DNA of 64,000 nt, from positions 1-64,000 of the forward strand of contig CALHAI010000005.1 in NCBI GenBank assembly GCA_937934295.1, in the 5' to 3' direction. The stretch is from an uncultured Blastocatellia bacterium (GTDB lineage: Bacteria > Acidobacteriota > Blastocatellia > HR10). Under the pieces are notes generated by a model, which had not been told where the DNA came from, made no database searches, and saw nothing but the letters and a program-made list of their open reading frames with translations. Below are positions 184-24,154 of this stretch, one piece after another. How positions within the stretch are numbered: position 1 is the first letter of the stretch; each line of letters starts with the position of its first letter. The translations under genes were made by a program, and so were the position numbers.

Positions 184-1056
184 TTATGTGAGGCGGGATT
201 CGATTTCTCTCACAATCCGGGCTGTTCGCTCGAAGGCGTCTGGGGAAACCGACAGGGACGTGACGCCCAATTGCAACAACGAAGCCACCAGCTCCGGACG
301 CCGCGATGGGGCATCGCCACACACGCAGCATTCCATAGCCCTCTCGTGACAAGCGCGCGCAACTCGCTCGAGGGCGCATCTCACCGCTTCATCCTGCTCA
401 TCCCAAAGGGGGATCAAACGCGGATTATCTCGATCCACGCCGAGGATGAGTTGCGTGAGATCGTTGGTTCCAATGGAGACGCCGTCTACAAGCGGAAGGA
501 ATCGCTCGATGAGGAAGACGACCGAGGGCACTTCGACCATGAGCCAAAGGGGGATGCCTATCTCGCCTACTCCCTCTTCGCGCAGGATCTCGCGACAGGC
601 GAGCAGCTCTGACACCGATCGAACGAAAGGGAGCATGAGACGAAGATTCGTCCAGCCCATCTCATAGACGCGTCGCACAGCACGCAATTGGAGACGGAAC
701 GGCTCGGGGTCATACAAATAGCGACGACAGCCTCGCAATCCGAGCGCCGGGTTCTCCTCCAGCTCCTCGAACTCCTGGCCTCCGCGCAAGCCGCGACATT
801 CGTTCGACTTCAGATCGAGCGTCCGAAAAGTGACCGGACGCGGCCAGAAGCAGCGCGCGACCTCAGCTAAGCCTTCGGCGAAAACCCGAATGAAGGCCTC
901 CGCTCCTCCCTCGGCAAGGAGTTTCCTGGGGTGGACTCCGAGCGCAAGGATGAGGAACTCGGAACGCAGGAGTCCGACACCATGGGCCGGGAGATCAGCG
1001 TATTGAGCCGCCAGTTGAGGGAAGCTCAGGTTCAAATAGATCTTCATGGAGCTCAC
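184..1056 (-). CDS. PEP-synthase-like C-terminal PEP/pyruvate-binding TIM-barrel domain as a stand-alone protein
   Basis: GVGLLRSEFLI, DLKSNEC, EENPALGLRG, NLRLMLPFVRS, GVSIGTNDLTQLILGVDRDN, CVCGDAPS: PpsA C-terminal domain motifs including the Cys-containing loop. Confidence 0.9.
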   Translation of the reverse strand: MSSMKIYLNLSFPQLAAQYADLPAHGVGLLRSEFLILALGVHPRKLLAEGGAEAFIRVFAEGLAEVARCFWPRPVTFRTLDLKSNECRGLRGGQEFEELEENPALGLRGCRRYLYDPEPFRLQLRAVRRVYEMGWTNLRLMLPFVRSVSELLACREILREEGVGEIGIPLWLMVEVPSVVFLIERFLPLVDGVSIGTNDLTQLILGVDRDNPRLIPLWDEQDEAVRCALERVARACHERAMECCVCGDAPSRRPELVASLLQLGVTSLSVSPDAFERTARIVREIESRLT

Positions 1057-1418
1057 TCTTCGAGGAAGATCTCCCCTTCAGCCGTGAATCGCACGCGACG
1101 CCCTTCCAACGCCTCCACGCCTTCGACGCGGCTCCCCATCACGCACGGGAGATCGAACTCCCGCGCGACGATCGCCAAATGCGACGTGATCCCTCCAGAA
1201 GCGCAGATGATCCCTCGAATCTTCGGCAGAATCGGCGTGATCGCCGTCACCGATGCCGACGGCGTGAACACGATTGTCTCCGAGAGATCGCTCTCCATCA
1301 GGCGCAAAACATCCTCAATGGCCTCGACCCTTCGCAGAATGCCGACGGCCCCTCGCCCACAGATCAGCTCTCCTTCCCCGATCTTTCGCATCTCCACCCT
1401 CCTGATAGTGCGCCTCAT
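1053..1418 (-). CDS. PEP-utilising swivelling phosphohistidine domain as a stand-alone protein
   Basis: GIICASGGITSHLAIVAREFDLPCVMG (phosphohistidine motif); start at 1418 gives 4-nt overlaps with both neighbours. Confidence 0.88.
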   Translation of the reverse strand: MRRTIRRVEMRKIGEGELICGRGAVGILRRVEAIEDVLRLMESDLSETIVFTPSASVTAITPILPKIRGIICASGGITSHLAIVAREFDLPCVMGSRVEGVEALEGRRVRFTAEGEIFLEE

Positions 1419-3673
1419 CCGAGATCGAGTTGAAGGTCCCACAAAGGCGCGTCCGAGGATCGCGCCAGCTCCGTCTCCAAAAGCGCTCCGCACTCCGGAC
1501 AGTAATAGTGCCGCCACTCGATGGCTTCCTCGACGTAGTGCTTCGGATCGAGAATGTGCGGGTTGGCTTCCTGGAGTGGGAACTGCTTCTGCAGACATCC
1601 GAGCTTATAGTTCTCCGTCGCCGACGCCAACGGGTGATCACAGTACCGGCACCGAATCCATCCCTGGATAAGCTTTAAGCCCTCCGCCAGAGGACGCGCC
1701 TCCGGCTCATCGGTCGCCGTCTGCGGCTTCGGCTCACGTCCGATGCGCTGACGGCGCATCTCCAGGCGCAACCGCTCCGTCTCCGAGCAGACGACGGCCC
1801 CCACCTCATCGAGTACAACCCCATAAGCCTGCCGTGCCCACTCTCGTGTGATGCGCCCCTGGCGATAGTCCTCCGCCACCCACTCGGGATCACGCCGCAA
1901 TGGATCCCCATATCCCCCCGCCGACGCCCACGACATGAGGAAAACGTCGTCGGGGTTTTGAACGATATTGAACGCCTTCGGCGGGATCAGCTCCACTGTC
2001 CCGTCCAAAGCCTCTGCACGATCGGGCACTCGCCCGGCTGACATCAACTCTCGCGCACGTGTCCTTCGAACCAGAGTATAGCGCGTCGTCGAAGTAGGAA
2101 ACCCTCCGAAAAGCCCAGGCCCTGGCACCGCGCAATGCCCTGTCGCCGTGAAAAGTGAGATCCGATCCGTCCCATGTGGGATGAAGGCCAATTCCGCCGC
2201 GTTTCCGCCGCGGAACTTCCCCGCCCCTCCCGAATCCGGCAACTCGCGACGCCAGAGATAGAGGATCGGGTAGAACCACTCACTCTCCTCAACGTTCGGC
2301 ATGGTGCTTTGCAGATCCCAGGGCCATCCCCCTGTGTCCACGCCATCGCGCCAAGAGAGTCCGGCCAACGCGGCTCCCACCGGATCGAGCAGGAACGAGA
2401 CATAGGGCGCGCCACGTTGATTCACGCCGCTCAACGCCGCGATGGGATACATCGGCGCGCCCATGCAGCTTTGCACCTCCGTCCGTAATTCCGGATCGTT
2501 CGAGCAGGCAAGCATCTTCGAGATCACAAGCCCCGAGAGGGCGATCGTTTGAAGGAGCGTGAGGGCAGGAGCTGCGCTCACCGCTGCCGGGAAAAGAGCG
2601 CAGGTGAGCGTGCCGGGCTGAACTTCGAATTCCACGTGACGATAGGCCCCCTCGACGACGAACATCTGATCGAAGAGCATCTGTGCCGAGACCATCGCCA
2701 TGATGGCCCCTCGCCAGGCGACGAGCGTACAATTAAGCGTGCCCGCCTGCGGATCCGTCCCCTCATTAGAGAAGAGCAATTGATCTCCCCGTTTGGTGAG
2801 CGTCAAACAATTTCGATACACGTGCCGATCGTCCGGGTGCGCCCACTCCACCCATCCAACGGCGCGCCATGTCCCGTCGGGGATGGTCTCCAATCGCCGT
2901 ACGAAGGCTTTCTCCGAATCATCCTGCAACTTGCGCATGACCCCCTTGACGGTCGCCGCCCCATATCGGGCGAGCAGTTGCTTGATCCGCTCGCGTGCTA
3001 CATGGCAGCCAGCGATCTCCGCCCGCAAATCCAAGGCGACCAACTCCGGCATCCGCGACCGGCGAATGTACTCCTCTTCGAGGTCTCGACGCAGCCGCCC
3101 GCGCTCGACGATCTTGATCGGCGGAATACATCCGGCCTCCCAGTAAACATCTAAAGCCATAGGATTGAATCCCCCGGGCGCCGTTCCGCCGAGGTCCCAT
3201 TGATGGAGGGTGTTCCCCACCCAACAGAACAGTTCCCCCTCCCAGAAGACAGGTGCGATCAGCGTCACATCGGATTGATGCGTCGCCCCAATCCACGGAT
3301 CGTTCGTCAGGAAGACATCGCCCTCCTCGATCCCCGGGTTCTCCGAACGATACTCCAGCGTCCATTTCACCGCCGAACTGGTCGCTGAGGAGAGATACTG
3401 CAAGAACGGGCCGAAGAAGATGAAATCCCCCCTCTCGTCCAGAAGACACGGATTGAAATCATGCCCATAAGCGCAAATGGGCGAGCCGGAGATCTTCATG
3501 ATCGTCACACCGTGCTCGACGTTGATGTTCCACAAAGCATGGCGAATGACTTCGTACGTGATCGGATCAATCCGTTCGGCCGCCTCCGTATGCAATTTCA
3601 GTCCAGGAGCGATCTGCAACTCCCGACCGTAAACGTACGGATATTGACGACCATCCCATTGCGCTGACGACAT
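1415..3673 (-). CDS. Hydantoinase B/acetone-acetophenone carboxylase-type subunit with C-terminal zinc-ribbon-like tail
   Basis: HyuB family sequence (ITYEVIRHALWNI, GDVFLTNDPWIGATHQSDV, CRGGNAAE-like region) plus C-terminal CRYCDH...YYCPECGALLE. Confidence 0.9.
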   Translation of the reverse strand: MSSAQWDGRQYPYVYGRELQIAPGLKLHTEAAERIDPITYEVIRHALWNINVEHGVTIMKISGSPICAYGHDFNPCLLDERGDFIFFGPFLQYLSSATSSAVKWTLEYRSENPGIEEGDVFLTNDPWIGATHQSDVTLIAPVFWEGELFCWVGNTLHQWDLGGTAPGGFNPMALDVYWEAGCIPPIKIVERGRLRRDLEEEYIRRSRMPELVALDLRAEIAGCHVARERIKQLLARYGAATVKGVMRKLQDDSEKAFVRRLETIPDGTWRAVGWVEWAHPDDRHVYRNCLTLTKRGDQLLFSNEGTDPQAGTLNCTLVAWRGAIMAMVSAQMLFDQMFVVEGAYRHVEFEVQPGTLTCALFPAAVSAAPALTLLQTIALSGLVISKMLACSNDPELRTEVQSCMGAPMYPIAALSGVNQRGAPYVSFLLDPVGAALAGLSWRDGVDTGGWPWDLQSTMPNVEESEWFYPILYLWRRELPDSGGAGKFRGGNAAELAFIPHGTDRISLFTATGHCAVPGPGLFGGFPTSTTRYTLVRRTRARELMSAGRVPDRAEALDGTVELIPPKAFNIVQNPDDVFLMSWASAGGYGDPLRRDPEWVAEDYRQGRITREWARQAYGVVLDEVGAVVCSETERLRLEMRRQRIGREPKPQTATDEPEARPLAEGLKLIQGWIRCRYCDHPLASATENYKLGCLQKQFPLQEANPHILDPKHYVEEAIEWRHYYCPECGALLETELARSSDAPLWDLQLDLG

Positions 3674-3692
3674 AGGCGTTCCTCCTTCCCGT

Positions 3693-5858
3693 TCACGAAA
3701 GAGTCAGGATGAAATTCCCATAGGCATCGACCGTGAGGAGGCTGCCCGGCCGCACGACGATCGTTGTCACAGGCAGCTCGATGACCGCTGGGCCTTCGAT
3801 CACCACTCCCGGTGGAACATCTTCCCCGGCGAAGATCGGCGTCCGTTGGTGCCGTCCGAGTTCCCGCCAATAGACCTCGCGTCGCCATCTGGGTGTGACC
3901 TTCCCCACCACGTGCCCGAAGGCCCCCTCCTTCATCCCGCGCGGACCGATGCGACCGAGGGCGACCACGCGCAATAGACCGATCTCCATTCCCGCCGCCG
4001 TGAACGCCGAGCCCCGTCCATAGAGCGTTTCGTACTTCTGAACGAATACCCGCTCCAGCTCACGCATATCCTCATCACTCAATATCCCCCCAGGGACGGG
4101 GACCTCAACCCGATGGATCTGAAGACGGAACTTCATCTCGGCGAAGCGCTGAAGGATCATGCGGTCCTCGGGAACCCCTTCTTCGTGAAGTTGCCGGCGC
4201 GCTTGCTCCTCCAATTCGAGGAAGATCTCCATGACGCGTCCAGCTTCACATGGTGCGACGAGCAACTCCGCTTTCTCATACACATGTTGAATGTCGGTTG
4301 AGAGGATGCCGAAGGCCGACCAGGTCGAAGCCAGGGCCCCGCCCGGGACGACGACCGTGCGACATCCCAACTCTCGCGCATAGGCGACGGCATGGGCCCC
4401 GGCCGCCCCGCCATACGCATAAATGACAAAGTCGCGCGGATCATACCCTCGCTGAATCGTCATCTGCCGGATGAGGTCGGCCATGTGCGTCTCCACGATC
4501 CGCGTGGCTCCATCCGCTGCCTCTAGAACGTCTAAACCAAGCGGCCCGGCCACCGCCTGCATGGCTCGACGCGCGGCCTCGCGATCAAGCGTGAGCCGAC
4601 CGCCCAAGAAGAAGTCCGGATTGTAATAGCCGAGAAGCAGATCAGCATCCGTCACCGTAGGCCGCGTGTTCCCCCGCCCATAACAGGCCGGTCCCGGATC
4701 CGCTCCTGCCGATTCGGGGCCGACCTTCATAGTTCCACTCAGCTCATCAATCCAGATGATGGATCCACCCCCAGCGCCTATTGAGACGATGTCCAACCGC
4801 GGCATGAAGAACGTGTAGTGATGGAGCGTCGTCTCGGAGGCCGAGAGCGGTCGCCCTTCGGCGATGAGGCCGACATCGAAGCTTGTTCCCCCCATGTCGG
4901 TGGCGATGACGTGCGAATGCCCAAGTTGTTCGGCCAGAAATCGGGACCCCATCAGTCCTCCCGCCGGCCCCGATCCGACCGTGAAGAGTGGCGCGCGCAC
5001 GATCGCCTCGGCCGGCGCTACCCCTCCTGAGGCCTGCATGATGAGCAACGGCCCTCGATATCCGAGGTCGCGCACCCGCTCCTGCACCCGGCGCACGTAG
5101 CGCGAGGTCTTCGGTCCGATGAAGCAATTGATCACCGTCGCCGCCGTCCGCTCGTACTCCCCCGGTTTGGCGATCAACTCGTGCGCGCACGTCACGAAGA
5201 GATCGGGAGCCATCTCCTGAACCATATGGCGCACTTCGCGTTCGTGAATGGGATTGACGAACCCCCAGAGAAATGCGATGGCGATCGCCTCGACCTGCTG
5301 TTCCAACAGCTCCTCGATAGCCCGTCGCGCTTCATCCCGATTCAATGGCACGATGACCTCGCCCCGCCAATCCACGCGCTCGCTCACTTCGCGAATGAGA
5401 CGGCGTGGGACGATCGGCTCCGGCTTCCGATGCCGTGAGACGTGCAAGAGTTTCTCGATCGGTAATCCGGCCGAGCGCCCGACCGAGCGCATGATGAGAA
5501 GCGCATCACCGTGTCCGCGCGTCGTGATCAGTCCCACGCGCGCCCCTTTCATCTCCACCACGGCATTCGTCCCGACCGTCGTCCCATGCAAGAGCCTGCG
5601 AGTGCGCGCCAGCAGCTCCGCGAGCGTGAGCCCAAACTGTTCGGCCGCGACCGAGAGCGCTGCGAAGAATCCCTCGGAGAAATCCCCCGGCGTTGAAGGG
5701 CTCTTGGCGAAGACCACGTTCCCTTCTGAATCACGCACGACGCAGTCGGTGAAGGTCCCGCCCGTGTCCACGGCACAGTAATATTCCCGCTCTTCCTTGG
5801 CGCGGCTTGAGCGCGCCGACTCCAAAATACTCACGACGTTTTCGCTCCTCATCGCCAT
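3693..5858 (-). CDS. Hydantoinase A/oxoprolinase family (ketone carboxylase ATPase-like subunit)
   Basis: YYCAVDTGGTFTDCVV, HGTTVGTNAVVEMKGARVGLITTRGHGD, ATDMGGTSFDVGLI, GGGSIIWID; start chosen at internal Met adjacent to upstream stop. Confidence 0.92.
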   Translation of the reverse strand: MAMRSENVVSILESARSSRAKEEREYYCAVDTGGTFTDCVVRDSEGNVVFAKSPSTPGDFSEGFFAALSVAAEQFGLTLAELLARTRRLLHGTTVGTNAVVEMKGARVGLITTRGHGDALLIMRSVGRSAGLPIEKLLHVSRHRKPEPIVPRRLIREVSERVDWRGEVIVPLNRDEARRAIEELLEQQVEAIAIAFLWGFVNPIHEREVRHMVQEMAPDLFVTCAHELIAKPGEYERTAATVINCFIGPKTSRYVRRVQERVRDLGYRGPLLIMQASGGVAPAEAIVRAPLFTVGSGPAGGLMGSRFLAEQLGHSHVIATDMGGTSFDVGLIAEGRPLSASETTLHHYTFFMPRLDIVSIGAGGGSIIWIDELSGTMKVGPESAGADPGPACYGRGNTRPTVTDADLLLGYYNPDFFLGGRLTLDREAARRAMQAVAGPLGLDVLEAADGATRIVETHMADLIRQMTIQRGYDPRDFVIYAYGGAAGAHAVAYARELGCRTVVVPGGALASTWSAFGILSTDIQHVYEKAELLVAPCEAGRVMEIFLELEEQARRQLHEEGVPEDRMILQRFAEMKFRLQIHRVEVPVPGGILSDEDMRELERVFVQKYETLYGRGSAFTAAGMEIGLLRVVALGRIGPRGMKEGAFGHVVGKVTPRWRREVYWRELGRHQRTPIFAGEDVPPGVVIEGPAVIELPVTTIVVRPGSLLTVDAYGNFILTLS

Positions 5859-5865
5859 CCTCGGC

Positions 5866-7017
5866 TCATAAAGAGATGGGGGAGAAGAACTCTTCCTCCG
5901 TCGTCGCCATGAATCGCCAGATCGACGGCGGTTCGGGCTCTTTGAGCAGTCGGCGGAGGAACGGAGCCGCCGCTTCCTCGAATGCTCGTCGAATCCGCTC
6001 ACCCGCCTCCACGCCAGCGATGTCGAAGAAGGCCTTCATGTGGTTCGCGAAAAGATGGAGACCATACTCGATCTTGAAGCGCGGCGACCAAGAGAGCGCT
6101 GCGCGGTATAGCTCCAGTTGCGCTTCAGCCGCGCAGCGTTCGATCTCCATAATCTCCTCGAAAGGAACAGCGCGCACCGCCCCCTCGTCGTAGGCGGTCA
6201 GGAGCGCACAAGCGCGCACGCGATCCGCATATTCCGCAGGCTCAATGTGTACTCCGCCGAAGAGATCGAATCGCACTGCCACCTCCCGAAGCGCGAGCAC
6301 GAGCGCCAGATTCGGATAACGGTTGCGCGCCCGCGTCCGCGCCCATGGCAGGTATGTATTCTGCAAGTCGGTGAATTCGCGGACAATGAGCACCTCTCGA
6401 TCGCCCGCATCATACGGCCCGTGCGCGAAGAGGCCATCTCGTTGCTCTCCATGCAGGATAAACGCATACAGCTCTAACGTCGCTGCCATCCGACGCAGGC
6501 GCTGAAACGTAGATGAATCCACCTCGACGAGATAGTCCCGCAGTGAAGCGATCGCCTCCAGCGGCAGGATCCGCATCGTCGCCTCCCGCTCATTCGGAAG
6601 GAGCCCTTCGGCCTCGCGATACGCCTGACAGACTCGCTGCCAAAACTCCACGACAAACCCAATCTGCTCCAGATCGTCCGCGGGAAAAGGCTCGCCCGGC
6701 TTCATCCCCAGATCGAGGATGTGTTGTTGACGTCCACCGAGATAACAACAAATGAGGATGCTCAAAGTGAGGAAGTTCGGACGCGCGCACAAGCGCCTCA
6801 TGCGCCGCCCGATCTCCTCAGGCGTGATGACCGAAGTCAACTCAGTGAGTAACGGATACGCCGTGCGATAAAGGCATTCCCATCCGAGCGAGGAGCGACG
6901 TGGCACATCGAAAAGCGCCGACTGCAAAAGCGCCCGCCGCTCCGATCGCATGAAGGCCTTCAGACTTCCGGAGACGATCCGGATATGGCGATTGAGCTCC
7001 TCGAGCGTCATCCCCAT
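5866..7017 (-). CDS. Uncharacterised protein, paralogue of the next gene (orphan family)
   Basis: Full-length 383 aa ORF in operon; shares HGPY, 'E....SPI' C-tail and overall length with 7027..8154. Confidence 0.8.
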   Translation of the reverse strand: MGMTLEELNRHIRIVSGSLKAFMRSERRALLQSALFDVPRRSSLGWECLYRTAYPLLTELTSVITPEEIGRRMRRLCARPNFLTLSILICCYLGGRQQHILDLGMKPGEPFPADDLEQIGFVVEFWQRVCQAYREAEGLLPNEREATMRILPLEAIASLRDYLVEVDSSTFQRLRRMAATLELYAFILHGEQRDGLFAHGPYDAGDREVLIVREFTDLQNTYLPWARTRARNRYPNLALVLALREVAVRFDLFGGVHIEPAEYADRVRACALLTAYDEGAVRAVPFEEIMEIERCAAEAQLELYRAALSWSPRFKIEYGLHLFANHMKAFFDIAGVEAGERIRRAFEEAAAPFLRRLLKEPEPPSIWRFMATTEEEFFSPISL

Positions 7018-7026
7018 CGTTCCCTC

Positions 7027-8154
7027 TCATACGATAGGGCTGTAGATCTCCCCTTCGGTCTCCGCAATATGGCGCAAAATGACCGGAGGTTCACCGGCGA
7101 GCAAGGCCTCCAGATGCCGATCTACACTCTCTTGGAAGCGTTCGCGGATCTGCTGATGAAAATCCGGCCCCAGGCCCGCGTGATCGCCGAAGATGCGAAG
7201 CAAATTCCCGTACAGCTCCGCCCCGTAGGCGATGCGGCGACGTTCATCCCACGCGAGAAAGCGCCGGTAGAGGTGTATCTGTGCGTCGGCCGCTTGCGCC
7301 GCAATCGCTTCCAATTCCTCAAGCGTTACGGGACGAACGCCCGCTTCCGTCGTCGTGAGGAGACCATAGGCGATGACATTTCGGCTATATTCTCTGGGCT
7401 CAGTCCAGAGCGAGCCGAAGAGGCCGATCCGCACCGTGACGTCCCTCAAACGCATGAGGCACGCCAGATGCGCAATGGGGAGCCACACGGACTCATCCGC
7501 CCAGGAATAGAATTCGTCTCGCAATCCCACTTGTTCCTTAACAAGCAGATACGTGCCATCCGACAACGGATAGGGTCCATGGTGGAAGATCCCCACGCGC
7601 GCTTCGCCATTGAAGACGAAGGTGAAGAGATCGAGCGTCGCCAGTGCGCGATGCAAGCGTCGGCGCCGCTCCTCCTCCGGTTCAGGATGGAGTGCCGGAA
7701 GGAGCGCTTCAACCGCCTGGTCTTCTAATATCGGTAATGTGAAACCGCTCTCTTCCGGTAAGAGCCAACCATCCCGACGATAGGCGGAGAGAAACCGCAC
7801 CCAGAAGTCTAAGAGGAAGGTGATCTCATCCGCTTCTTCCCTCACCCAGTGGCCGAGCAGTCGCTTTTGTTCGCGTCCGTTCAAGTAACCGAGTAACAGC
7901 GAATTAATGTGGATCTCATTCGGTCGCGCGCCGAGCCGCTTCGCCCGATGTGCCAACGCTTCTGGAGGCATGTGCTCGGTGACGCGCCGCAACAGTGGCA
8001 CCAGGTTCTCGACGTAACAGTAACTCCCCAAGATCAACCGCCCCGGCAGATGAAAAAGAGGGGAGAGCATCCGCGAGCGCTGCTGCGCGCGGAAGAACTC
8101 GCGAACGCTCTCTCCAAACCGATGAAGCAACGTATTGATATACGCCCGTTCCAT
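7027..8154 (-). CDS. Uncharacterised protein, paralogue of 5866..7017
   Basis: 375 aa ORF; FNGEARVGIFHHGPY / ILHGEQRDGLFAHGPY and AETEGEIYSPI / ATTEEEFFSPI alignable between the two. Confidence 0.8.
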   Translation of the reverse strand: MERAYINTLLHRFGESVREFFRAQQRSRMLSPLFHLPGRLILGSYCYVENLVPLLRRVTEHMPPEALAHRAKRLGARPNEIHINSLLLGYLNGREQKRLLGHWVREEADEITFLLDFWVRFLSAYRRDGWLLPEESGFTLPILEDQAVEALLPALHPEPEEERRRRLHRALATLDLFTFVFNGEARVGIFHHGPYPLSDGTYLLVKEQVGLRDEFYSWADESVWLPIAHLACLMRLRDVTVRIGLFGSLWTEPREYSRNVIAYGLLTTTEAGVRPVTLEELEAIAAQAADAQIHLYRRFLAWDERRRIAYGAELYGNLLRIFGDHAGLGPDFHQQIRERFQESVDRHLEALLAGEPPVILRHIAETEGEIYSPIV

Positions 8155-8179
8155 CGCCTCTTCTCGATTCGCCGGAACC

Positions 8180-8690: not shown

Positions 8691-8705
8691 TAGTCAAACG
8701 GCTGT

Positions 8706-9662
8706 TCAGAATTCGATCACCGACAGTCGCTCATCTGCGGTGCCGAAGCTCCAGGTCAGGCATCCATACCCCTTCATCTCCCGACATTCATATTCCCCAA
8801 CGGAGAAGAGCAGGTGATCGAACCGATGGGGCCAGTGATGTGACGTATCAATGATGCCGAGCGGTCGGGCCGAGAGCGTGAGCGAACGTCCGCGCATATC
8901 GATGACGCGCGCGTCCACCCGTTCGATGGATTTCCACCGGCGCTCGCTCCAGGTGACGGCCAGATGGGCCGAGTGCAAGAGCGCGCGTTCGTTCCCTTGA
9001 TGGAGATAGCCGCAGAGGTGGCGTCGACCGTCAGCGAAGTTCATGGCCGCCACGTTGACGACGAGCTCAGGAGAGAACGGAACCCAGAGTACGAGATACC
9101 CCCGCCAGAGCGCGCGCCCCCCCCATCCCCACATCCGATCGCGCATCCCGAGCGCTGCGACGGAAATCTCTTCCCCTTCGATGTTCATCCATCCCTCGTA
9201 CCACCCGACCTGATCGAAATGGCGGCTCTGCTCTCCCCCAGCCGCCTCCTCCATCCACAGCTTGGCCTCTGCCCAACTGAAGGCTCGATGCTGCGCACGG
9301 AAAGTGAGATCGAACTGCAATCGCGGACTATCATAGCGCAATCGCCATCGCGCGAAGGGCTCGACCATCTCCAGCTTCAGGGGGCCGAAGCTCAAGCGCT
9401 CTCGCCAGATATCGCGCGGGATCGCGTAGTCCATCTTCATCAGCTCATAGCGCAGATGTCCGTCCACGAACACATAGAGGGTGAGATCACCGCGACCGGC
9501 ATTGGGGAAGACGCCCTGGTAGACCTGGAATTGAACGCGTGCGGTCGGATCGAAGAATTCGAAATACCAGGCCTCGCGCCACCACGGTTCAGGACCCACA
9601 ACGTGAATATCATCGTCACTGGGATCGAGGCCAACGGGAACGAAATCGTCATCCTTGGACAT
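8706..9662 (-). CDS. Lipocalin/AttH-like (DUF7064-type) protein
   Basis: 318 aa ORF; ALGMRDRMWGWGG motif reminiscent of 'GMRDRSWG' AttH-like proteins found in lipid/steroid catabolic loci. Confidence 0.5.
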   Translation of the reverse strand: MSKDDDFVPVGLDPSDDDIHVVGPEPWWREAWYFEFFDPTARVQFQVYQGVFPNAGRGDLTLYVFVDGHLRYELMKMDYAIPRDIWRERLSFGPLKLEMVEPFARWRLRYDSPRLQFDLTFRAQHRAFSWAEAKLWMEEAAGGEQSRHFDQVGWYEGWMNIEGEEISVAALGMRDRMWGWGGRALWRGYLVLWVPFSPELVVNVAAMNFADGRRHLCGYLHQGNERALLHSAHLAVTWSERRWKSIERVDARVIDMRGRSLTLSARPLGIIDTSHHWPHRFDHLLFSVGEYECREMKGYGCLTWSFGTADERLSVIEF

Positions 9663-9705: not shown

Positions 9706-10503
9706 TCAGCGGCCGCAGAAGCGCGGTGGGCGCTTCTCGATGAACGCGCGCACGCCTTCGCCGAAGTCATCGGTCGCAGCGAGCATGCCGACGATTTGCC
9801 GCTCGCGCTCCAATTGCTCATCTAACGAAGCCGTGAGGCTCACCATCAGCAGATACTTGATGGCGGCGAGCGCCCGCACCGGTCCCTGTACGATGCGCGC
9901 GGCGAACGTCCGCGCTTCCTCAAGCAATTCACCCTCGGGGACCACACGATGTACGAGCCCCCATCGCGCGGCTTCCTCCGCTTCGATCAGCTCCCCACTC
10001 ACCATCCACTCGAAGGCCCTCCCCCACCCAATCAGCCGCGGGATGAAGAACGTTCCCCCGCAATCCGGCGCGATCCCCAACCGCACGAACGCCTGGTTGA
10101 AGCGCGTCCCCGCGGCCGCTAACCGATAGTCGCAAGCGAGCGCGAGATTGCAACCGCCGCCGCTGGCGACCCCATGAATGGCCGCGATAACGATCTTCGG
10201 CATCCCGCGAATGATCCGGACAACATCATTCAAGGGGGCGAGCAACTCGTCCAACAAGTGGTCGGCCGAAGCCCTTTCCTCCAACCGCCGCCCGAGATAC
10301 TTCAAATCGGCCCCCGCCGAGAATGCTCGCCCGGCTCCGGTGAGGATCACAGCTCGGACGTCCTCCCGTGCCTGAAGGGCCCGAAAGACCTCGCGCAGTT
10401 CGGTCGCCAAGGTCGCATCAATGGCGTTGAGCACCTCAGGCCGATGGAGCGTCACCGTAGCCACCCCTTCACTCACCGCAAGCTGCACGGTCTGTCCACC
10501 CAT
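9706..10503 (-). CDS. Enoyl-CoA hydratase/isomerase family protein
   Basis: ILTGAGRAFSAGADLKYL, AAIHGVASGGGCNLALACDYRLAA, GIAPDCGGTFFIPRLIG. Confidence 0.93.
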   Translation of the reverse strand: MGGQTVQLAVSEGVATVTLHRPEVLNAIDATLATELREVFRALQAREDVRAVILTGAGRAFSAGADLKYLGRRLEERASADHLLDELLAPLNDVVRIIRGMPKIVIAAIHGVASGGGCNLALACDYRLAAAGTRFNQAFVRLGIAPDCGGTFFIPRLIGWGRAFEWMVSGELIEAEEAARWGLVHRVVPEGELLEEARTFAARIVQGPVRALAAIKYLLMVSLTASLDEQLERERQIVGMLAATDDFGEGVRAFIEKRPPRFCGR

Positions 10504-10519
10504 ATCCCCCCTCGTACGC

Positions 10520-11527
10520 TCACGCCTTCCCCGCCACACGCAACCGCTTCACCTCCTCGATCAGGACCGGAATGATATTCTCGTAGGCTTCGACGATCCC
10601 CAGATCAGCCACTTTGAAAATCGGCGCGTGTGGGTCCGTGTTAATGGCGACGATGCATTTCGCCCTGGAGATCCCAACGACATGTTGACTGGCTCCGGAG
10701 ATGCCGACGGCGAGATAGAGATCAGGAGCGACCTTCTTCCCTGTCTGTCCGATCTGCCAGCTCGCTGGCACCCATCCGGCATCACACGCCGCGCGCGAAG
10801 CTCCGACAGCCCCCCCCAACCATCGCGCCAGCTCTTCCAACAGCCGGAACCCTTCGGGGCCCCCTATGCCCCGTCCACCGCTCACGACGATCTGCGCCTC
10901 TTCGAGCGCAGTGCCAGTCGCTGACTCCTCTTGGATTCGCTCCAGGAGCCGCGTCCGCTCCAATGAGGGATCGAGCGCCACCTCGACCCATGTCGTGTCT
11001 CCCCCGACGATCTCCCCCTCGATTGGATCAAATGCGCGCGGGCGCACGCAAACGACGACCGGGGGTCGAGAGGCGACCAACATGGCGTGGGCTTTCCCTC
11101 CATAGACGGGTTTGGTGATGACCACCGCCCCATCTTCAGCTTGGAGTCCGATGACGTCGGTCACCATCGCCGCTCCCAGCCGATAGGCCAGCCGCGGAGC
11201 GATCTCCAGTGCAATCGTCCGACCGGGGAAGAGGATCACGTCCGGTCGAACGGTCGCCAGCAGCTGTTCGAGGGCGCTCACATACAACTCCGGCGCATAT
11301 CCCCGAAGCATCGGATGAGCGATGAAGAACGTGCGCGCGTTCGCTGATGCCTCCAATGTCAGGCCCGCTCTCTCTGGGCGCTCAGCGACGGATTCTGCAG
11401 CCGGGCCGACGAGTGCTACATTCACTTCCCCAGCGAACGCCGTTGCGAGGGCGCGGGCTGCGCCGATGGCTTCGCGCTCACTCCGCCCGACCTCAGGCGT
11501 CGGAAGAACGACTAAGATGACGCGCAT
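10520..11527 (-). CDS. etfA: Electron transfer flavoprotein alpha subunit
   Basis: [89 protein letters not shown]. Confidence 0.95.
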
Positions 11528-11540
11528 ACGCTCCCCCCAC

Positions 11541-12353
11541 TCAGAGAATTCGCCGTTCTCGCAGCGCCCGCACAAGATGCACAGCTTTTTCGGTAACGGT
11601 CTCCCCTTCGATCCATTCGCACGCTTTCGACGTGCCCGGAATGACCAGCTCCCGCACCTGCAGGCGTCCGTTCGCTCCCCAAAGCCCCGTTACGTCGCTC
11701 ACTAACTCTGGAATCGTCCACATGGGGATCGGCGCGCGCGCCGCGAGCATCGTGTCCCGTACTTTGGGCAAGCGCGGGACGTTCGTCTCCTCGTTGGTGA
11801 TCGTCGCCACCGCCGGTCGCGCTGCCCACACGATCTCCCACCCCTCGTCTGACTGCCGTCGCATGAGGAATCCGCCGTCCGTCGCCTCGATGCGCGAGAC
11901 GAAGGTCACACACGTCCATCCAAGCGCTTCGGCCAGGAACGATCCGACTTGTCCCCCGTGCCAATCCCCGGTCTCGCGCCCGCAGAGGACGAGGTCCACC
12001 GGATGCAATCGCTCTACAGCCGCCTTCAGCAGACTCGCGACGACGACCCCATCGAGCACCGGTCCCCCCTCGCTCGAGATCAAGATCGCTCGATCGGCGC
12101 GTAAACTCAACGCCCTCCGCAGCACATCCGCTGCCGATGGTGGACCGACTGTGAGCGCGATGACCTCCACCGGCTCGCGCTCGATCATCCGCTCCCGGAG
12201 TTGCAAGGCGACCTCTACCGCGTTCTCATCGAAGATGCTCATGACCAATTGTCCAATCCCTTCAGCCGCCGCAGTCCGCTCCGCATTGAGCCGGAATTCG
12301 CCTGGCGGAATCTCCGGATCTAAAATCTGTGTCACGCAGACGATGACGCGCAT
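11541..12353 (-). CDS. etfB: Electron transfer flavoprotein beta subunit
   Basis: MRVIVCVTQI, NAVEVALQLRE, LVLCGRETGDWHGGQVGSFLAEALGW. Confidence 0.93.
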   Translation of the reverse strand: MRVIVCVTQILDPEIPPGEFRLNAERTAAAEGIGQLVMSIFDENAVEVALQLRERMIEREPVEVIALTVGPPSAADVLRRALSLRADRAILISSEGGPVLDGVVVASLLKAAVERLHPVDLVLCGRETGDWHGGQVGSFLAEALGWTCVTFVSRIEATDGGFLMRRQSDEGWEIVWAARPAVATITNEETNVPRLPKVRDTMLAARAPIPMWTIPELVSDVTGLWGANGRLQVRELVIPGTSKACEWIEGETVTEKAVHLVRALRERRIL

Positions 12354-12417: not shown

Positions 12418-13581
12418 TCACCGTCCTAAGACGACGACGCAGGCGACTGAGCCCGGTCCTCCGAGATTATGCACAAGCCCCAACTCGGCATTCTTCACTT
12501 GTCGAGCCCCAGCTTGCCCGCGCAACTGAAGGACGATCTCCGTGAGCATGCGCACGCCACTCGCGCCAATGGGATGGCCGAACGATTTCAATCCCCCACT
12601 CGGATTCACCGGCAGATCTCCCGCAAGCGCGCTCCGCCCCTCTTCGATGAAATATCGCCCTTCCCCCTTCTTGCAGAATCCCAAGTCCTCATAATTGGCG
12701 ATCTCCGTCCACGTGAAGCAATCGTGCACTTCCGCCACGGAGATCTCCCGTGCCGGATTCCGAATCCCCGCCATGCGATACGCCTCAGCCGCCGCGGCCA
12801 CCGTCGCCGGAAACCCGATGTACTCGAACGTCGGATCGAAAAACGGCCAGCCTGTTTCTACGGCCAATCCAATCCCTTTGACATAGACCGGATCCTCCCG
12901 AAACTGTCGCGCACGATCGGCCCGACAGATGATGACTGCCGCCGCTCCATCCGTCGTCGGACAGCAATCGTAGAGCCCGAATGGATAGGCCACAAGCGGC
13001 GCCGCCAGGACCTGTTCTTCGGTCACCTCCATCCGAAAATGGGCCTTTGGATTGAGGGCGCCGTTGTGATGATTTTTCACAGCTACCTTCGCCAGCGTGT
13101 GCCGATCGCCGCCGAACCGATGGAAATATCGATTCGCCGCCAGGGCGAAAAGGCCCGGCGGCGTCGAACCCGCTTCCAGATACGGATGTGTCCCCTCTCG
13201 CTGCAGCCCGCGCACAGGCCGATCCCGCAACTTCTCGGCCCCGACAACCAACACCACCTCATATACCCCAGCGGCCACAGCCAGACACGCATTCCGAAAG
13301 GCATCCGTCCCGGTCGCGCAGTAGTTCTCCACCCGCGTGATCGGCTTCCCATACAGCCGCAGGGCATCGGCCAAGGTGACGCTCGCTTTCCCCCCTCCGA
13401 ATCCCGGCGAGAATGTGCCCAACCAAGCGGCCTCTACCCGCTCCGGCTCGATCCCCGCATCCTCATAAGCGGCCAACGCCGCTTCCGCCATCAACTCCGA
13501 TAAGCTCTTGTCATGCAACTCGCCGAACTTTGTGCAACCGATCCCAATGACAGCCACTTTGTCCTTGAGACTCTCAGCCAT
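12418..13581 (-). CDS. Thiolase (SCP2-type acetyl-CoA acetyltransferase family) with apparently intact Cys
   Basis: VENYCATGTDAFRNA, HDCFTWTEI, NPSGGLKSFGHPIGASG. Confidence 0.92.
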   Translation of the reverse strand: MAESLKDKVAVIGIGCTKFGELHDKSLSELMAEAALAAYEDAGIEPERVEAAWLGTFSPGFGGGKASVTLADALRLYGKPITRVENYCATGTDAFRNACLAVAAGVYEVVLVVGAEKLRDRPVRGLQREGTHPYLEAGSTPPGLFALAANRYFHRFGGDRHTLAKVAVKNHHNGALNPKAHFRMEVTEEQVLAAPLVAYPFGLYDCCPTTDGAAAVIICRADRARQFREDPVYVKGIGLAVETGWPFFDPTFEYIGFPATVAAAAEAYRMAGIRNPAREISVAEVHDCFTWTEIANYEDLGFCKKGEGRYFIEEGRSALAGDLPVNPSGGLKSFGHPIGASGVRMLTEIVLQLRGQAGARQVKNAELGLVHNLGGPGSVACVVVLGR

Positions 13582-14980
13582 CTTCCCCTCCCTCCGGTCG
13601 GCACTTCCAGTAGTAATGATAGAGACCGCCGCCCGCCCCCAACCGCCGCAGCGTCAGACGCACCCGCATCCCAATACGCACTTCCGAAGGTTCGACGTCA
13701 GTCACCTGCACATAGAGTCGCCCTCCCCCTTCGATGTCCACCACGGCCAACACCGTCGGCGGCATGGGCGAAGCCGCGAGCCAATCCACTGTATATGTGA
13801 ACACCTCCCCCTGCCGACCAAGCGAGACCTCGCGCAGGCCCGTCATGCTGTGGCACCTTTGACAGATACGCGTCGGCGGAAACTGCCGCAGACCGCATTC
13901 CCCACATTCGGTTCCCCGCAGACGAATCGTGCGCGCCTCCTCCTTCTCATAGAAGACGTTCGAGAGCACTGGTCCCTCCTCGTGATGCCGAAAGTACTCT
14001 CGCGCCTTCCGAAACCGTTCGTAGGAGGGGAAGCGCAGCCCACGTCGAAGTTGTTCGGCGATCGGATCGCGCACCACATAGCCCTCAATAAGCGGCGTCA
14101 CTTCAAACAGCACGGCATCGGCGCCACTCCCATAGCCGACCAAGAGGATTCGATCCCCGGGCCGCGCTTGTTCGAGTGCCGCGCTCAGCAGAAACAGCGG
14201 CATCGCGCATCCGAGCATCCCCACGCGATCCAGAAACGTCTCCTGCACTTGCTCAGCGCGAAACCCCAATTCCGACGCCACGCGCGTCGCCATCTTCGGA
14301 TCCAAAGGCGGGAGAATCACCCGCGCGATCTCCGAAGGCCGGAGCCCACTCTTCTCCAATACCCGCGCGATCGCGCGACCGACGATCCGACAATAGCCCT
14401 CCACCGTGAACCGAGAAGCAAAGCTCGTGATCCGCTCATCTTTATCCCGCCGGACGAAATCAAGGAAATCGTCGCTCACACTCGCCCACGCCTTCGCCGC
14501 AGCCACGACGTGCTCTCGCCCGACGGCTACAGCCGCCGCCCCATCCCCAAACCATTGCTCCTCAGGCGACTCCGGCGACGCTTCTCGCACGTCGGCGGCG
14601 ACGACGAGGATCGGCTCCTGCCCCCCCACAGCCGCGCGATCCAGAGCCGCCATGAGCGCTACCGTTCCTGCTCGCAGCGAATGCGCGAAGTCCGCAACTG
14701 CGATCTCTTCCGGGAGATCACAGGCTGTCGCCAGCAGTGCGGCGTTCATCCGCTCCAGATACGGCGCCGTCGTGGAAGCGAAATAGATTCCACCGCAAGC
14801 GGGGAGGTCTAATCCTTGTACGGCCTCTAGGGCGAGCGTCAGCGCATCTTCGTCGAACCCGATGGCTGTTCGCTCGCCTTCCAAGACAGGCTTCCCCCCA
14901 TGGGCGGCAGCAATCTTCTCCCGTTCGATCCGGTGTCGCGGCAGATACACGGCATGTCGGGTGATCCCGATCATCTCCAA
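13574..14980 (-). CDS. HMG-CoA synthase-like (thiolase fold) protein fused to C-terminal DUF35 zinc-ribbon/OB-fold
   Basis: N-terminal HMGS-like region (EEQWFGDGAAAVAVG) and C-terminal GTECGECGLRQFPPTRICQRCHS...GEVFTYTVDW. Confidence 0.85.
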   Translation of the reverse strand: MEMIGITRHAVYLPRHRIEREKIAAAHGGKPVLEGERTAIGFDEDALTLALEAVQGLDLPACGGIYFASTTAPYLERMNAALLATACDLPEEIAVADFAHSLRAGTVALMAALDRAAVGGQEPILVVAADVREASPESPEEQWFGDGAAAVAVGREHVVAAAKAWASVSDDFLDFVRRDKDERITSFASRFTVEGYCRIVGRAIARVLEKSGLRPSEIARVILPPLDPKMATRVASELGFRAEQVQETFLDRVGMLGCAMPLFLLSAALEQARPGDRILLVGYGSGADAVLFEVTPLIEGYVVRDPIAEQLRRGLRFPSYERFRKAREYFRHHEEGPVLSNVFYEKEEARTIRLRGTECGECGLRQFPPTRICQRCHSMTGLREVSLGRQGEVFTYTVDWLAASPMPPTVLAVVDIEGGGRLYVQVTDVEPSEVRIGMRVRLTLRRLGAGGGLYHYYWKCRPEGGEDG

Positions 14981-15009
14981 AGCTCAAGACATTTCATCGC
15001 CGAGCTCAA

Positions 15010-16641
15010 TTACCCTTTTGCTCGCAGCAGTCCCCGACGATCCACCCGCGTGCGCAAGAGCCGAAGCTCCTCCGACGTCGGTGGCGGCGTCTCCGGCACA
15101 TCGGCCGGGATGACCAAATCAAATCCCGTATTCTCCCGAATCTGGTCCACGCTCACCCCCGGATGCCGCCAGACCACACGCATCCGCCCCTCGGCGTCAA
15201 AATCCAACACAGCCAGATCAGTGACGACCCAAAACTCCGTGAGGGAGTGAGCATACCCCGGAGCTGAGACGAAATCAACGCGCTCGACGAAGACCTGAGG
15301 CGTATGCCGGCGAAAGAAGGCCACACGACGCCGCGCGCAAGGGGCCAATTCCAATCCCACGCTCCCTGGTCCTCTCAGTCGCGGCGCCGACCACGTCCCC
15401 ACACCCACGAGATTCACATTCCCATGCCGATCGATTTGCAAGCCGCTCAAGAACATCACGTCGAAGGCGCCCCGGAGCTCCAGATCGAACAATTCTTCTA
15501 AGCGCAGCACGGCTTCCGCTCGTGAGATCGCCTGCGCGGAATTCACCGAGGGTAAGAGTTCTTCCAGCTCTGGGTTGAGCGCTGCCGTCCCCCCCATGGT
15601 GAACGAGAGATTGGGCGCATGCGTGAGTTGCGCCAATCGTAACCCGGCCGCCACCTCCCAACACCCCGTGCCGACGCCGACGAAATCCCCATCTCGGACC
15701 AAGCGCGAAAAAATAACGGCCAGCCACTCTCTTGATGAAGGCGGGGCAACCTCCGCCACCTCTTCCGCGCGATCTTCCGATGCCCTCGCGATCACCCCCT
15801 TCTTCAAATACTCCGATTCATCGGACGAGAGCACGAGGTCCTGGAGATACCTCGCCATCCCCTCGCGCGTCCGGCTGTGGGCGAGATAGAACCGCAGATG
15901 TTCGCGATCCACGTCGTAGAGCGGTTCGCTCGCCGTCGGATGTGCCGCTCCGAACATGGGGACGACCATATCCACCAAAATGGATGGAAGCGTCGTCCGC
16001 TGTGGCTCCGCGCGCACGATGTCATGCGGGATCAGTTCATCGCAACTGAGGATGACACGACGCGCCGCCCGCGCCAGCAGCGGGTCCATGTAGACCGATC
16101 CGAGATGTCGCGCATTCCCAAAAGGATCGCTCTGTGGCGCATGCAACAGTGCCCAATCGGGCGCGAGCGCGGGCACGCAGAGGACCTCCTCACCGGTGAA
16201 TGGATCGCGCGTGAAGCGATAGTCCGTGTTCACCCGAACAAGATCCGTATAGGCGAGCGTGCGCGGAAGAGCGAAGAAGGGCGCCCCGGCCGCCCCCGCC
16301 TTCAGGCCGAAGGCGAGAAAGGCTTCTCCAATCTCGCGAATCTCAACCTCCCCACATTCGGCGGCGCGCCGAAAATTCGGCGCCACACCGAACTCCTCCA
16401 ACCCCACGTAAGGGCTGATCACCCGACGCACGCATCTGGCCCCGATAAGCAGATCGAGCGGAAAGCCCGCCACGGCAGACGTGATCACCGTCAGATCCCG
16501 CTTCCGCTGCCGAATCAGCTCCCGCACCAGCGCCATCGGCACGTTGAAATAGGATAACCCCCCGATGGCGATCGTGCTCCCATCCTCGATCTGCTCGATG
16601 GCCTCACGGAGCGAGACGATCTTCTCCCGTCGCGTCGTCAC
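15010..16641 (-). CDS. Fused alpha+beta CoA-transferase-family protein (GctAB/IpdAB-like)
   Basis: N-half GSTIAIGGLSYFNVPMALVRELIR..DLLIGARCVRRVI; C-half LVRDGDFVGVGTGCWEVAAGLRLAQLTHAPN...GNVNLVGVGTW. Confidence 0.88.
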   Translation of the reverse strand: MTTRREKIVSLREAIEQIEDGSTIAIGGLSYFNVPMALVRELIRQRKRDLTVITSAVAGFPLDLLIGARCVRRVISPYVGLEEFGVAPNFRRAAECGEVEIREIGEAFLAFGLKAGAAGAPFFALPRTLAYTDLVRVNTDYRFTRDPFTGEEVLCVPALAPDWALLHAPQSDPFGNARHLGSVYMDPLLARAARRVILSCDELIPHDIVRAEPQRTTLPSILVDMVVPMFGAAHPTASEPLYDVDREHLRFYLAHSRTREGMARYLQDLVLSSDESEYLKKGVIARASEDRAEEVAEVAPPSSREWLAVIFSRLVRDGDFVGVGTGCWEVAAGLRLAQLTHAPNLSFTMGGTAALNPELEELLPSVNSAQAISRAEAVLRLEELFDLELRGAFDVMFLSGLQIDRHGNVNLVGVGTWSAPRLRGPGSVGLELAPCARRRVAFFRRHTPQVFVERVDFVSAPGYAHSLTEFWVVTDLAVLDFDAEGRMRVVWRHPGVSVDQIRENTGFDLVIPADVPETPPPTSEELRLLRTRVDRRGLLRAKG

Positions 16642-18014
16642 TTCTGATCCCGTCGCTCGATGAGCTTCGTCTTATGGGCCGTGCGCTCGAGCGTCCCCTC
16701 AGGAACCATCTCGATCTCCGGACGCACGCGCAGGCGATCGTGCATCGCTTCGGCGATCTCCACCTTCAAGCGCTCGATCTGCTCCCCTTCCAAACCCGCG
16801 CTGTATTCGACCCGAAGCCGCAGTGGTGGCATCACGCGCGGCCCCGGAACGTCGAGCACGATCCGCATCTCCCCGGTTACGCGCGGGGAGAATGATTCAA
16901 CGAGATTCTTCACCGCCGCTGGGTAGACCTTCACCCCCTTGACGATCAAGAGGTCATCCACGCGCCCGAGCACTTTGATGCGCGGTCCTGGCCGCCCACA
17001 CGGACATGGCGTCGTGAACACCTGATAGATGTCTCCCACGGAATATCGAATCGGCGGTTGCGCTTCCCATTCCAGGGCCGTCTTCACCCGCTCGCCAATG
17101 GCCCCATCCTCCAATGGAAGGGGCTCCTTCGTCTCCGGATCCACGAGATCGTAGGAGACGGAGAAATCTTCCCCCACCACGTGCATCCCCTGATATTCAG
17201 GAGCGTCGCACGAGACGTTGAGGATTCCATGAGCCCCACCGAGCATATCGTAGAGCCGCGCGCCATATGCTTCTTGAATCTTCCGACGCACCTCGAGCAG
17301 CCCGGCTCCAGGTTCTCCCGCGCAGCAGATGATCTCAATGCCCAGCTCGCCGACCTCGCACCCAAGGACCTTGGGCGCGACCTCGATCAGATATTCGGCA
17401 TATGAAGGCGTGCACAACAGCGCTCGAGGGCGCGTCCACCGAATGAGTTTCAATAAGCGTTCACTTCCGGCCTCAGCGCCGCAGGGGATCGGACGCGCCC
17501 CCATCCATTCCAACGCCCGAACGACAGGCACTCCGGCCAGGAACATGCTCAGTCCGAAGGCGTGCATCACGGTATCCTTGGGTCTGATCCCCGCACGCCA
17601 GAATCCGCGCGCCCAGAGGCGATTGGTGACCTCCACGTCGTGTCGCGTGAAGGCATAAAACGTCGGCTCCCCCGTCGTCCCCGACGTCGCCGCGACGGCG
17701 ACCACCTGCTCCACGGGTGCGCAGAGGAACATCCCAAAGGGATGACCCAACTCGCGCAGCGATTGCTCCTGACTCTCCCGATGAATTTCCGGCGTGATGA
17801 AGATCGGCAACTGACGCAAATCCTCCAGCGTGCGGATGTCCTCGGGATGCGCTCCCGCTTGATGAAACTTCTCGCGGTAGAAAGCCGACCTCTCATAAGC
17901 GTAGCGGAGTTGACGCCGGAGCTTCTCTACGCGCACGGCCTCAAGCCGCTCCTCGGGCATCAACTCCCATTCCGGCTCGAAATACACCTCGGATTGCCGT
18001 TCAACCGGTGACAT
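16638..18014 (-). CDS. Phenylacetate-CoA ligase (PaaK)-family AMP-forming ligase
   Basis: VAATSGTTGEPTFYAFT, EIICCAGEPG, PIRYSVGDIYQV, LLIVKGVKVYPAAVKNLVE. Confidence 0.9.
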   Translation of the reverse strand: MSPVERQSEVYFEPEWELMPEERLEAVRVEKLRRQLRYAYERSAFYREKFHQAGAHPEDIRTLEDLRQLPIFITPEIHRESQEQSLRELGHPFGMFLCAPVEQVVAVAATSGTTGEPTFYAFTRHDVEVTNRLWARGFWRAGIRPKDTVMHAFGLSMFLAGVPVVRALEWMGARPIPCGAEAGSERLLKLIRWTRPRALLCTPSYAEYLIEVAPKVLGCEVGELGIEIICCAGEPGAGLLEVRRKIQEAYGARLYDMLGGAHGILNVSCDAPEYQGMHVVGEDFSVSYDLVDPETKEPLPLEDGAIGERVKTALEWEAQPPIRYSVGDIYQVFTTPCPCGRPGPRIKVLGRVDDLLIVKGVKVYPAAVKNLVESFSPRVTGEMRIVLDVPGPRVMPPLRLRVEYSAGLEGEQIERLKVEIAEAMHDRLRVRPEIEMVPEGTLERTAHKTKLIERRDQK

Positions 18015-18021
18015 AGCCCCC

Positions 18022-24151: not shown

Positions 24152-24154
24152 GGC

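Follow-up and report, generated by a model that had tools for sequence, protein, structure and literature searches.

A conserved operon of Acidobacteriota that may combine a phosphoenolpyruvate-driven phosphotransferase with a HyuAB-type carboxylase

Results

An operon was analysed that lies at one end of a 64,000-nucleotide stretch of DNA (referred to as the window; contig CALHAI010000005.1, positions 1 to 64,000) from an uncultured Blastocatellia bacterium (assembly GCA_937934295.1). Position 1 of the window is the end of this contig (C5), and the genome (2.79 Mb, 94.5% complete) has its near relatives among the Acidobacteriota. Six minus-strand genes are found here in the order, from upstream to downstream, orphan A, orphan B, HyuA, HyuB with a fused Acetone_carb_G domain, a phosphohistidine swivel protein and a phosphoenolpyruvate (PEP)-binding protein; a gene coding for a DUF7064/DUF7065 protein is located upstream of them. 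We consider the chances about even that these genes encode a four-protein, PEP-driven phosphotransferase and a phospholyase, built into a catabolic operon with a HyuAB-gamma carboxylase. This reading is carried by what can be read directly from the DNA: the gene content, the conserved gene order, the intact active-site motifs, the lack of an ATP-grasp partner and the constant linkage of orphan and swivel genes. The core features are the following:

184..1047 (open reading frame start possible at 1056), minus strand: PEP/pyruvate-binding protein, a lone PEP-synthase C-terminal domain (PF02896, PEP-utilizers_C, 217.7 bits)
1053..1391 (open reading frame start possible at 1418), minus strand: phosphohistidine swivel protein, 112 amino acids (PF00391, 49 bits; motif GGITSHLAIVARE)
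1179..1181, minus strand: presumed phospho-accepting His codon of the swivel protein (His80 of the 121-amino-acid form)
1415..3673, minus strand: HyuB-type subunit with a fused acetone-carboxylase-gamma-like Cys4 domain (PF02538, 340.5 bits; PF08882, 36.1 bits)
3693..~5858 (open reading frame to 6002), minus strand: HyuA-type ATP-binding subunit (PF05378, PF01968 and PF19278; 286.4 bits plus N and C domains)
5866..7017, minus strand: orphan B, proposed acceptor/substrate-binding subunit of an undescribed family (AlphaFold2 pLDDT 88.8; swivel-gene partner family)
7027..8154, minus strand: orphan A, paralogue of orphan B (AlphaFold2 pLDDT 92.2; invariant R186, G193-P194-Y195 and P253)
8706..9662, minus strand: DUF7064/DUF7065 protein, proposed phospholyase and relative of 25-phosphosteroid lyase (PF23212/PF23213)

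The gene order is conserved in Acidobacteriota

The six near-contiguous genes proposed by an earlier sequence-only reading of this DNA were all found at their places. The 4-nucleotide overlaps it described at 1415/1418 and 1053/1056 are possible with the longest open reading frames but partly vanish, because they depend on the start codon chosen: ATG 1391 is favoured as the start of the swivel gene by a good Shine-Dalgarno sequence and by the relatives, and ATG 1047 is the likely start of the PEP-binding gene (protein of 287-290 amino acids). For HyuA, the relatives favour a start at about 5858 over the open reading frame start at 6002. A promoter and terminator scan gave no signal above chance.

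Scanning of genome contigs with the orphan alignment identified four loci, two of them in near relatives (L006, an Acidobacteriota metagenome-assembled genome (MAG), and L007, HRbin10) and two on actinomycete MAG contigs (L008 and L009). Every one of the five genomes of the genus has a free-standing orthologue of the PEP-binding protein, as do two genomes of another family within the order (61-62% identity); none was free-standing in the other near relatives searched. The block is thus kept in seven Acidobacteriota genomes of two families, as far as the contigs reach (G599 begins inside orphan B and G603 inside HyuA), and the six-gene order, the conservation of which had been proposed as a check, is real and kept within one order. 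In G602 and G603, HyuB and the swivel gene are separated by an additional AMP-dependent ligase gene, and another DUF7064/65 gene follows the PEP-binding gene. G598 has a major facilitator superfamily (MFS) transporter gene between the DUF7064/65 gene and orphan A. In L006 and L007 the block finishes with the PEP-binding gene, and in G602 and G603 it runs on for one DUF7064/65 gene. The downstream flanks of L006 and L007 are unlike each other. A chance neighbourhood of HyuAB and PEP genes was ruled out, as seven genomes share the block while the outer flanks change, and an assembly or frameshift artefact as the origin of the split PEP synthase was ruled out by the identical split in six further genomes. 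At the place of the MFS gene of G598, which encodes an intact protein of 428 amino acids (L108, 9857-11143), the window contains a remnant of such a gene in several frames (8155-8705, minus strand); the gene is absent at the corresponding place in L006 and L007.

In every Acidobacteriota copy whose contig spans the stretch, HyuAB is nested within the relay genes. L008 and L009 lack HyuAB and carry the genes for the swivel protein, the PEP-binding protein, orphan A and orphan B in one uninterrupted run; this module (51%, 52%, 41-42% and 45% identity to the window proteins, respectively) is flanked by luciferase-like oxidoreductases on one side and by an ADP-forming CoA ligase on the other. Conversely, the closest plasmid relatives of HyuB (haloarchaea, 45%; R. 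opacus; M. branderi) are accompanied by HyuA and a gamma domain or gene, and no swivel, PEP-binding or orphan gene was found near them. The proposed co-occurrence of PEP-domain genes and HyuAB therefore holds within one order, but the two parts are separable elsewhere. A tree built from 56 orphan domains places A and B in separate groups, each with an actinomycete copy, which indicates that their duplication predates the split between Acidobacteriota and actinomycetes.

Orphans A and B are constant partners of the swivel protein

Orphans A and B (375 and 383 amino acids) had been listed as two orphan paralogues. Paralogues they are (38% identical to each other), but they are constant partners of the swivel protein and core parts of the system, not bystanders. 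In the loci retrieved, 47 of the 52 orphan domains outside the PEP-linked group are encoded at most 262 bp away from a same-strand swivel gene. Of the five exceptions, two have their start at the edge of a contig and one represents half of a split match. Since most genomes hold few swivel domains overall, chance cannot explain this linkage. Natural swivel-orphan fusions also exist (L011, 8503-10131; L013, 7876-10257), and a tblastn search of plasmids revealed distant orphans in Rhodococcus and Novosphingobium, some of them fused to a swivel domain. A profile search detected the family in 39 of 296 actinomycete-class genomes; when 297 genomes from the phylum of the window were searched with a single sequence, only the window's own genome gave a match.

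Neither orphan had a Pfam or NCBIfam match or a significant PHROG match. The AlphaFold2 models are confident (A: pLDDT 92.2, pTM 0.92; B: pLDDT 88.8, pTM 0.90), that of orphan A consisting of helices and one sheet, and Foldseek found no fold neighbour for either in the PDB (best E-values 1.2 and 0.45, TM about 0.1); a "new fold" is meant here in this sense, i.e. without a neighbour among solved structures. Weak hemerythrin matches of orphan A (E 0.03) and Rieske and relaxase fold matches (E about 0.5, TM 0.1) were taken as chance. A relationship to the substrate-binding domain of rifampin phosphotransferase (RPH) or HpeH was ruled out, with no RPH among the Foldseek matches listed for either model and none found by profile search, as was a degenerate ATP-grasp domain, there being no Pfam match and no ATP-grasp match for the model of helices and one sheet. 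Across the 56 orphan domains R186, G193, P194, Y195 and P253 are invariant, position 184 is always acidic and position 206 always basic. On the reading preferred here, the orphans would act as acceptors that pass phosphate on to a substrate hydroxyl.

Sets of swivel, orphan and DUF7064/65 genes in Actinomycetes (L060-L090) are often divergent from a gene coding for a winged-helix-like protein of 200 amino acids and lie near genes for malate dehydrogenase, glycerol-3-phosphate dehydrogenase and glycerol kinase. In L076 and L080 (G512 and G497) and in L011 (R. oxybenzonivorans plasmid pRB98), three or four swivel-orphan pairs are clustered, in L011 together with PPDK_N-type and DUF7064/65 genes; these would be several paralogous phosphotransferases side by side.

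PEP is the simplest candidate donor

The free-standing PEP-synthase parts had been recognised from the sequence, and closer analysis bears this out: they are separate genes with intact catalytic residues and no ATP-grasp subunit. In the PEP-binding protein, whose best solved matches are PEP synthases, R30, R77, R107, E174, N197, D198, R207 and C245, which cover the catalytic Arg, the Glu/Asp metal ligands and the Cys, are intact (289-amino-acid numbering; aligned with solved PEP synthases and enzyme I of the phosphotransferase system (PTS)), and these residues are also kept in L007, L009, L112 and L114, which include the second family and actinomycete MAGs. The phospho-acceptor His is kept in all 53 swivel proteins compared. 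The window protein has the motif GGITSH, and GGxTSH occurred in all six swivels linked to a PEP gene and in none of the 49 others. Threonine at this position is typical of PEP synthase, pyruvate phosphate dikinase (PPDK) and PtsI, while phenolic kinases have Met there (PMC12167813). The PEP-linked swivels probably form one lineage, so that GGxTSH would be a character consistently shared within it rather than something that arose six times.

An ATP-grasp partner subunit for the swivel protein is lacking in the block, and none is free-standing in the genome of the window or in those of L006 and L007. The sole PPDK_N domain of the window's genome belongs to a full-length PPDK of 937 amino acids on another contig, and the sole PPDK_N domains of the genomes of L006 and L007 likewise belong to full-length PPDK proteins (915-937 amino acids). 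Elsewhere, including relatives in Rhodococcus, a PPDK_N ATP-grasp protein is encoded beside orphan-swivel genes (L010, L011, L013, L087). Pfam showed no HPr-binding domain in either the PEP-binding or the swivel protein; HPr was not searched for elsewhere in the genome, which also encodes an enzyme I-like protein of 640 amino acids. The simplest reading is that PEP would serve as phosphate donor to the swivel His.

The DUF7064/65 protein is related to a phospholyase

The DUF7064/65 protein, overlooked in the sequence-only reading, matches the solved 25-phosphosteroid lyase (9fzn/9g4c, E-values 4e-6 and 1.9e-5), and the window protein retains the Asp of the RDRxWG (RDxxWG) motif, a position occupied by Asn in entry 9g4c. 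The dehydration of a tertiary alcohol in sterol degradation takes a kinase and a lyase that eliminates phosphate, and it proceeds by way of a phosphoester, the transfer potential of which is slightly above that of ATP (PMC8449060); on our own inference, PEP would for this reason suit as a donor. A DUF7064/65 gene is located at most 400 bp from an orphan gene in 23 of 49 loci and farther away in the window, L010 and L013. No APH domain was found among the Pfam-scanned genes of the block. Such a domain is present in the HyuAB-gamma loci of M. branderi, H. alkaliphila and R. opacus. In M. branderi, the APH-type kinase gene overlaps a DUF7064/65 gene by 4 nucleotides and HyuBA-gamma lies in the same region, an arrangement that suggests one kind of kinase can take the place of another. 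The clusters of Haloterrigena alkaliphila (L116) and Mycobacterium branderi (L118) are plasmid-borne and have the APH-type kinase gene in their region, and L118 carries two DUF7064/65 genes.

HyuAB-gamma is better read as a carboxylase than as a hydrolase

As proposed, HyuA and HyuB resemble acetone and acetophenone carboxylase subunits. The ATP-binding motifs of HyuA (DTGGTFTD, DMGGTSFD, GADPGP) are intact, the metal-site motifs of HyuB (GHDFN/THQSD/LHQWD at 70/131/156, aligned with 5l9w_A) are present together with CxxC at 675 and 725, and a gamma-like domain (PF08882, AcxC/ApcB-like) is fused to HyuB and scores above the cut-off. Only one HyuA is encoded in the block and in its relatives. 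ATP and metal motifs are common to carboxylases and hydrolases (PMC8453981), so the two classes were not separable in this way. It is unlikely, in our estimate, that HyuAB-gamma is an ATP-dependent hydrolase of lactam or hydantoin type, which would concern this part only and would be compatible with the relay. HyuA does give somewhat better scores against caprolactamase A (414 bits) and N-methylhydantoinase (400 bits) than against acetophenone carboxylase gamma (398 bits), and the metal site does not discriminate; against this stand the PF08882 domain fused to HyuB, the acetophenone carboxylase delta subunit as the nearest solved chain of HyuB, the nearest plasmid relatives, which are annotated with acetone carboxylase gamma, and the adjoining ligase, CoA-transferase and thiolase of the block, which fit a beta-keto acid product. 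We consider a carboxylase several times more probable than a hydrolase.

Proposed pathway and comparison with known systems

The PEP-binding protein would move phosphate from PEP onto the His of the separate swivel protein, a reaction known from enzyme I of the PTS and, in reverse, from PEP synthase. The phospho-swivel would then dock on the orphan A/B pair, which would hold an organic substrate and transfer the phosphate to its hydroxyl (or enol). The DUF7064/65 protein would eliminate this phosphate in the manner of 25-phosphosteroid lyase, leaving an alkene. HyuA, using ATP and bicarbonate, and HyuB-gamma with its metal would carboxylate a ketone that arises within this pathway; the resulting beta-keto acid would be degraded by a CoA ligase or CoA-transferase and a thiolase. 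What we infer in this scheme is PEP as the donor, the functions assigned to the orphans and to the lyase, the carboxylation and every substrate. In its full form, with PEP and not ATP paying for the activation of an otherwise inert hydroxyl or ketone, here the (tertiary) alcohol or the ketone enol group of a hydrophobic substrate on a new-fold acceptor pair, and with the phospholyase and HyuAB-gamma completing an undescribed pathway, we hold the proposal only tentatively.

Several systems share parts of this make-up. The two-component phenolic dikinases HpeHI, CreHI and phenylphosphate synthase PpsAB, and RPH, also pass phosphate from a swivel phosphohistidine to a small catabolic substrate on a separate domain, within a catabolic operon, and in the Hpe pathway phosphorylation precedes carboxylation of the ketone (PMC12167813, PMC9618137). 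They use an ATP-grasp partner (PMC12167813), in contrast to the window with its PEP-binding subunit, the window acceptors belong to another family without a fold match, and the window swivel has GGxTSH, where the phenolic kinases have Met at the position of the Thr. PEP synthase and PPDK share with the window a swivel domain and a PEP-binding domain in which the catalytic residues are intact; in the window these are split into two genes, lack ATP-grasp and are joined by two additional acceptor proteins. As in enzyme I of the PTS, the swivel His would be phosphorylated from PEP by a PEP-binding domain without ATP, but the window sequence is nearer to PEP synthase and lacks an HPr-binding domain, the block contains no HPr, and the acceptor is apparently not HPr. 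The DUF7064/65 protein links the window to the pair of 25-hydroxysteroid kinase and 25-phosphosteroid lyase, as it is related to this lyase, and a kinase with a lyase would bring about an ATP- or PEP-driven dehydration (PMC8449060); the steroid kinase, however, is a single ATP-using enzyme of the phosphotransferase family (APH-like) and not a four-protein PEP relay. Acetone and acetophenone carboxylases and caprolactamase share the HyuA ATP motifs, the HyuB metal site and a gamma/beta-like Cys4 domain, which in the window is fused to HyuB inside a phosphate relay operon. The single HyuA is as in acetone carboxylase and caprolactamase and unlike the two HyuA-type subunits of acetophenone carboxylase. 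The acceptor family is apparently new.

Alternative explanations

Several observations weigh against a PEP-driven phosphotransferase with a phospholyase. The actinomycete contigs with PEP-linked modules are short (4.5 kb, coverage <2), which makes their taxonomy unsure. The lyase match spans only the N-terminal half of the DUF7064/65 protein (residues 28-179, E 4e-6) and leaves the C-terminal half unaligned, several actinomycete copies are short and have no RDxxWG motif, and 23 of 49 loci leaves many without a close lyase gene. Many Actinomycetes hold the orphan-swivel pair with no donor domain nearby, so that donors act in trans there and could do so here. We know of no activity for any member of the orphan family. 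The surroundings of the orphan-swivel genes in other Actinomycetes include malate dehydrogenase and glycerol-3-phosphate genes, which give no pointer to ketones, and 100 actinomycete neighbours scanned for a clue to the substrate gave no clear answer, being mostly malate dehydrogenase and glycerol-3-phosphate genes common to related genomes.

The sequence-only reading was of a phosphohistidine relay that feeds the HyuAB carboxylase in a single ATP/PEP-dependent, ketone-activating machine. Relay and HyuAB are indeed joined in one order, and both direct feeding and a joint machine are possible; the phosphate may, however, be eliminated rather than used by HyuAB, as the relationship of the DUF7064/65 protein to 25-phosphosteroid lyase suggests. 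In an Hpe-like version, which we regard as rather unlikely, the relay would phosphorylate a phenol or the enol of a ketone, and the phospho-ketone would be the direct substrate of HyuAB-gamma; in its strongest form, the relay would stand in for the second HyuA-type kinase of acetophenone carboxylase and HyuA would activate bicarbonate only. Such a route would account for the nesting of HyuAB in the relay genes of Acidobacteriota, as opposed to the contiguous relay genes of the actinomycete MAGs, and for a single HyuA with caprolactamase A, which uses about one ATP per substrate (PMC8453981), as its best match, where acetophenone carboxylase has two such subunits; HpeCBA, moreover, carboxylates the phosphorylated ketone only (PMC9618137). 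It does not explain the haloarchaeal, R. opacus and M. branderi HyuAB-gamma relatives without a relay nearby, acetone carboxylase needs only a single HyuA (PMC5543143), the orphans are unlike the HpeH/RPH acceptor domain, and the lyase relative would be given no role. That the swivel phosphohistidine reports the PEP/pyruvate ratio in a regulatory relay, with the orphans as sensors or protein targets and not enzymes, seems to us quite unlikely: swivel-orphan pairs are often divergent from the winged-helix-like gene and VadK, a PPDK-derived histidine kinase, is reported to be regulatory (PMC13400623), but the window block has no such regulator gene, the linkage with catabolic enzymes and the phospholyase relative is recurrent, and the invariant Arg, acidic and basic positions of the orphans resemble a catalytic or phosphate-binding site. 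It is highly improbable that the pieces work in trans with the full-length PPDK or PTS enzyme I of the genome, in which case ATP or the PTS would supply the phosphate and pyruvate would be converted to PEP by the PEP-binding protein. Both the 937-amino-acid PPDK and the 640-amino-acid enzyme I-like protein are available in the genome, and PEP synthase runs toward PEP; these two are, however, fused multidomain proteins with a swivel of their own, the swivel motif tracks the PEP-binding gene, and PEP synthesis requires no orphans.

Neighbouring genes

Upstream, the conserved block extends beyond the six genes and comprises, besides the DUF7064/7065 gene, the following:

9706..12353, minus strand: enoyl-CoA hydratase-like protein (ECH), EtfA and EtfB, conserved operon neighbours (Pfam and order in relatives)
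12418..18101, minus strand: thiolase, KAS-III/ChsH2-OB fusion, CoA-transferase and PaaK-type CoA ligase, conserved operon neighbours

A KAS-III/HMG-CoA-synthase-like protein fused to a DUF35/ChsH2-type OB domain (13574-14980) adjoins an SCP2-type thiolase (12418-13581), an arrangement that may resemble the archaeal thiolase-HMGCS-DUF35 complex. A second catabolic block (18022-32479) codes for IpdA/IpdB-like CoA-transferases, a FadH-like reductase, acyl-CoA dehydrogenases, a ChsH2-like OB protein and Ltp-like thiolases; its make-up resembles that of steroid-ring degradation genes, and it is also present in G598 (L115). At the very end of the contig (1-154, minus strand) lies a truncated open frame, by eye a candidate start of a TnpB/OrfB-type transposase gene.

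Significance

If the PEP-driven phosphotransferase reading is true, this would apparently be the first swivel-type small-molecule phosphotransferase in which phosphate passes from PEP to a catabolic substrate by way of a new acceptor family. It would join three lines studied apart, namely phosphorylation before carboxylation (Hpe; precedents in PMC9618137 and, for HpeHI, PMC12167813), the kinase-lyase dehydration of tertiary alcohols in sterol degradation, and biotin-free ketone carboxylation. The orphan family, found in 39 of the 296 sampled actinomycete-class genomes and without a Pfam entry or a solved fold, gains a first testable role, and the organisms that carry the operon would possess a new route to activate alcohols or ketones for breakdown.

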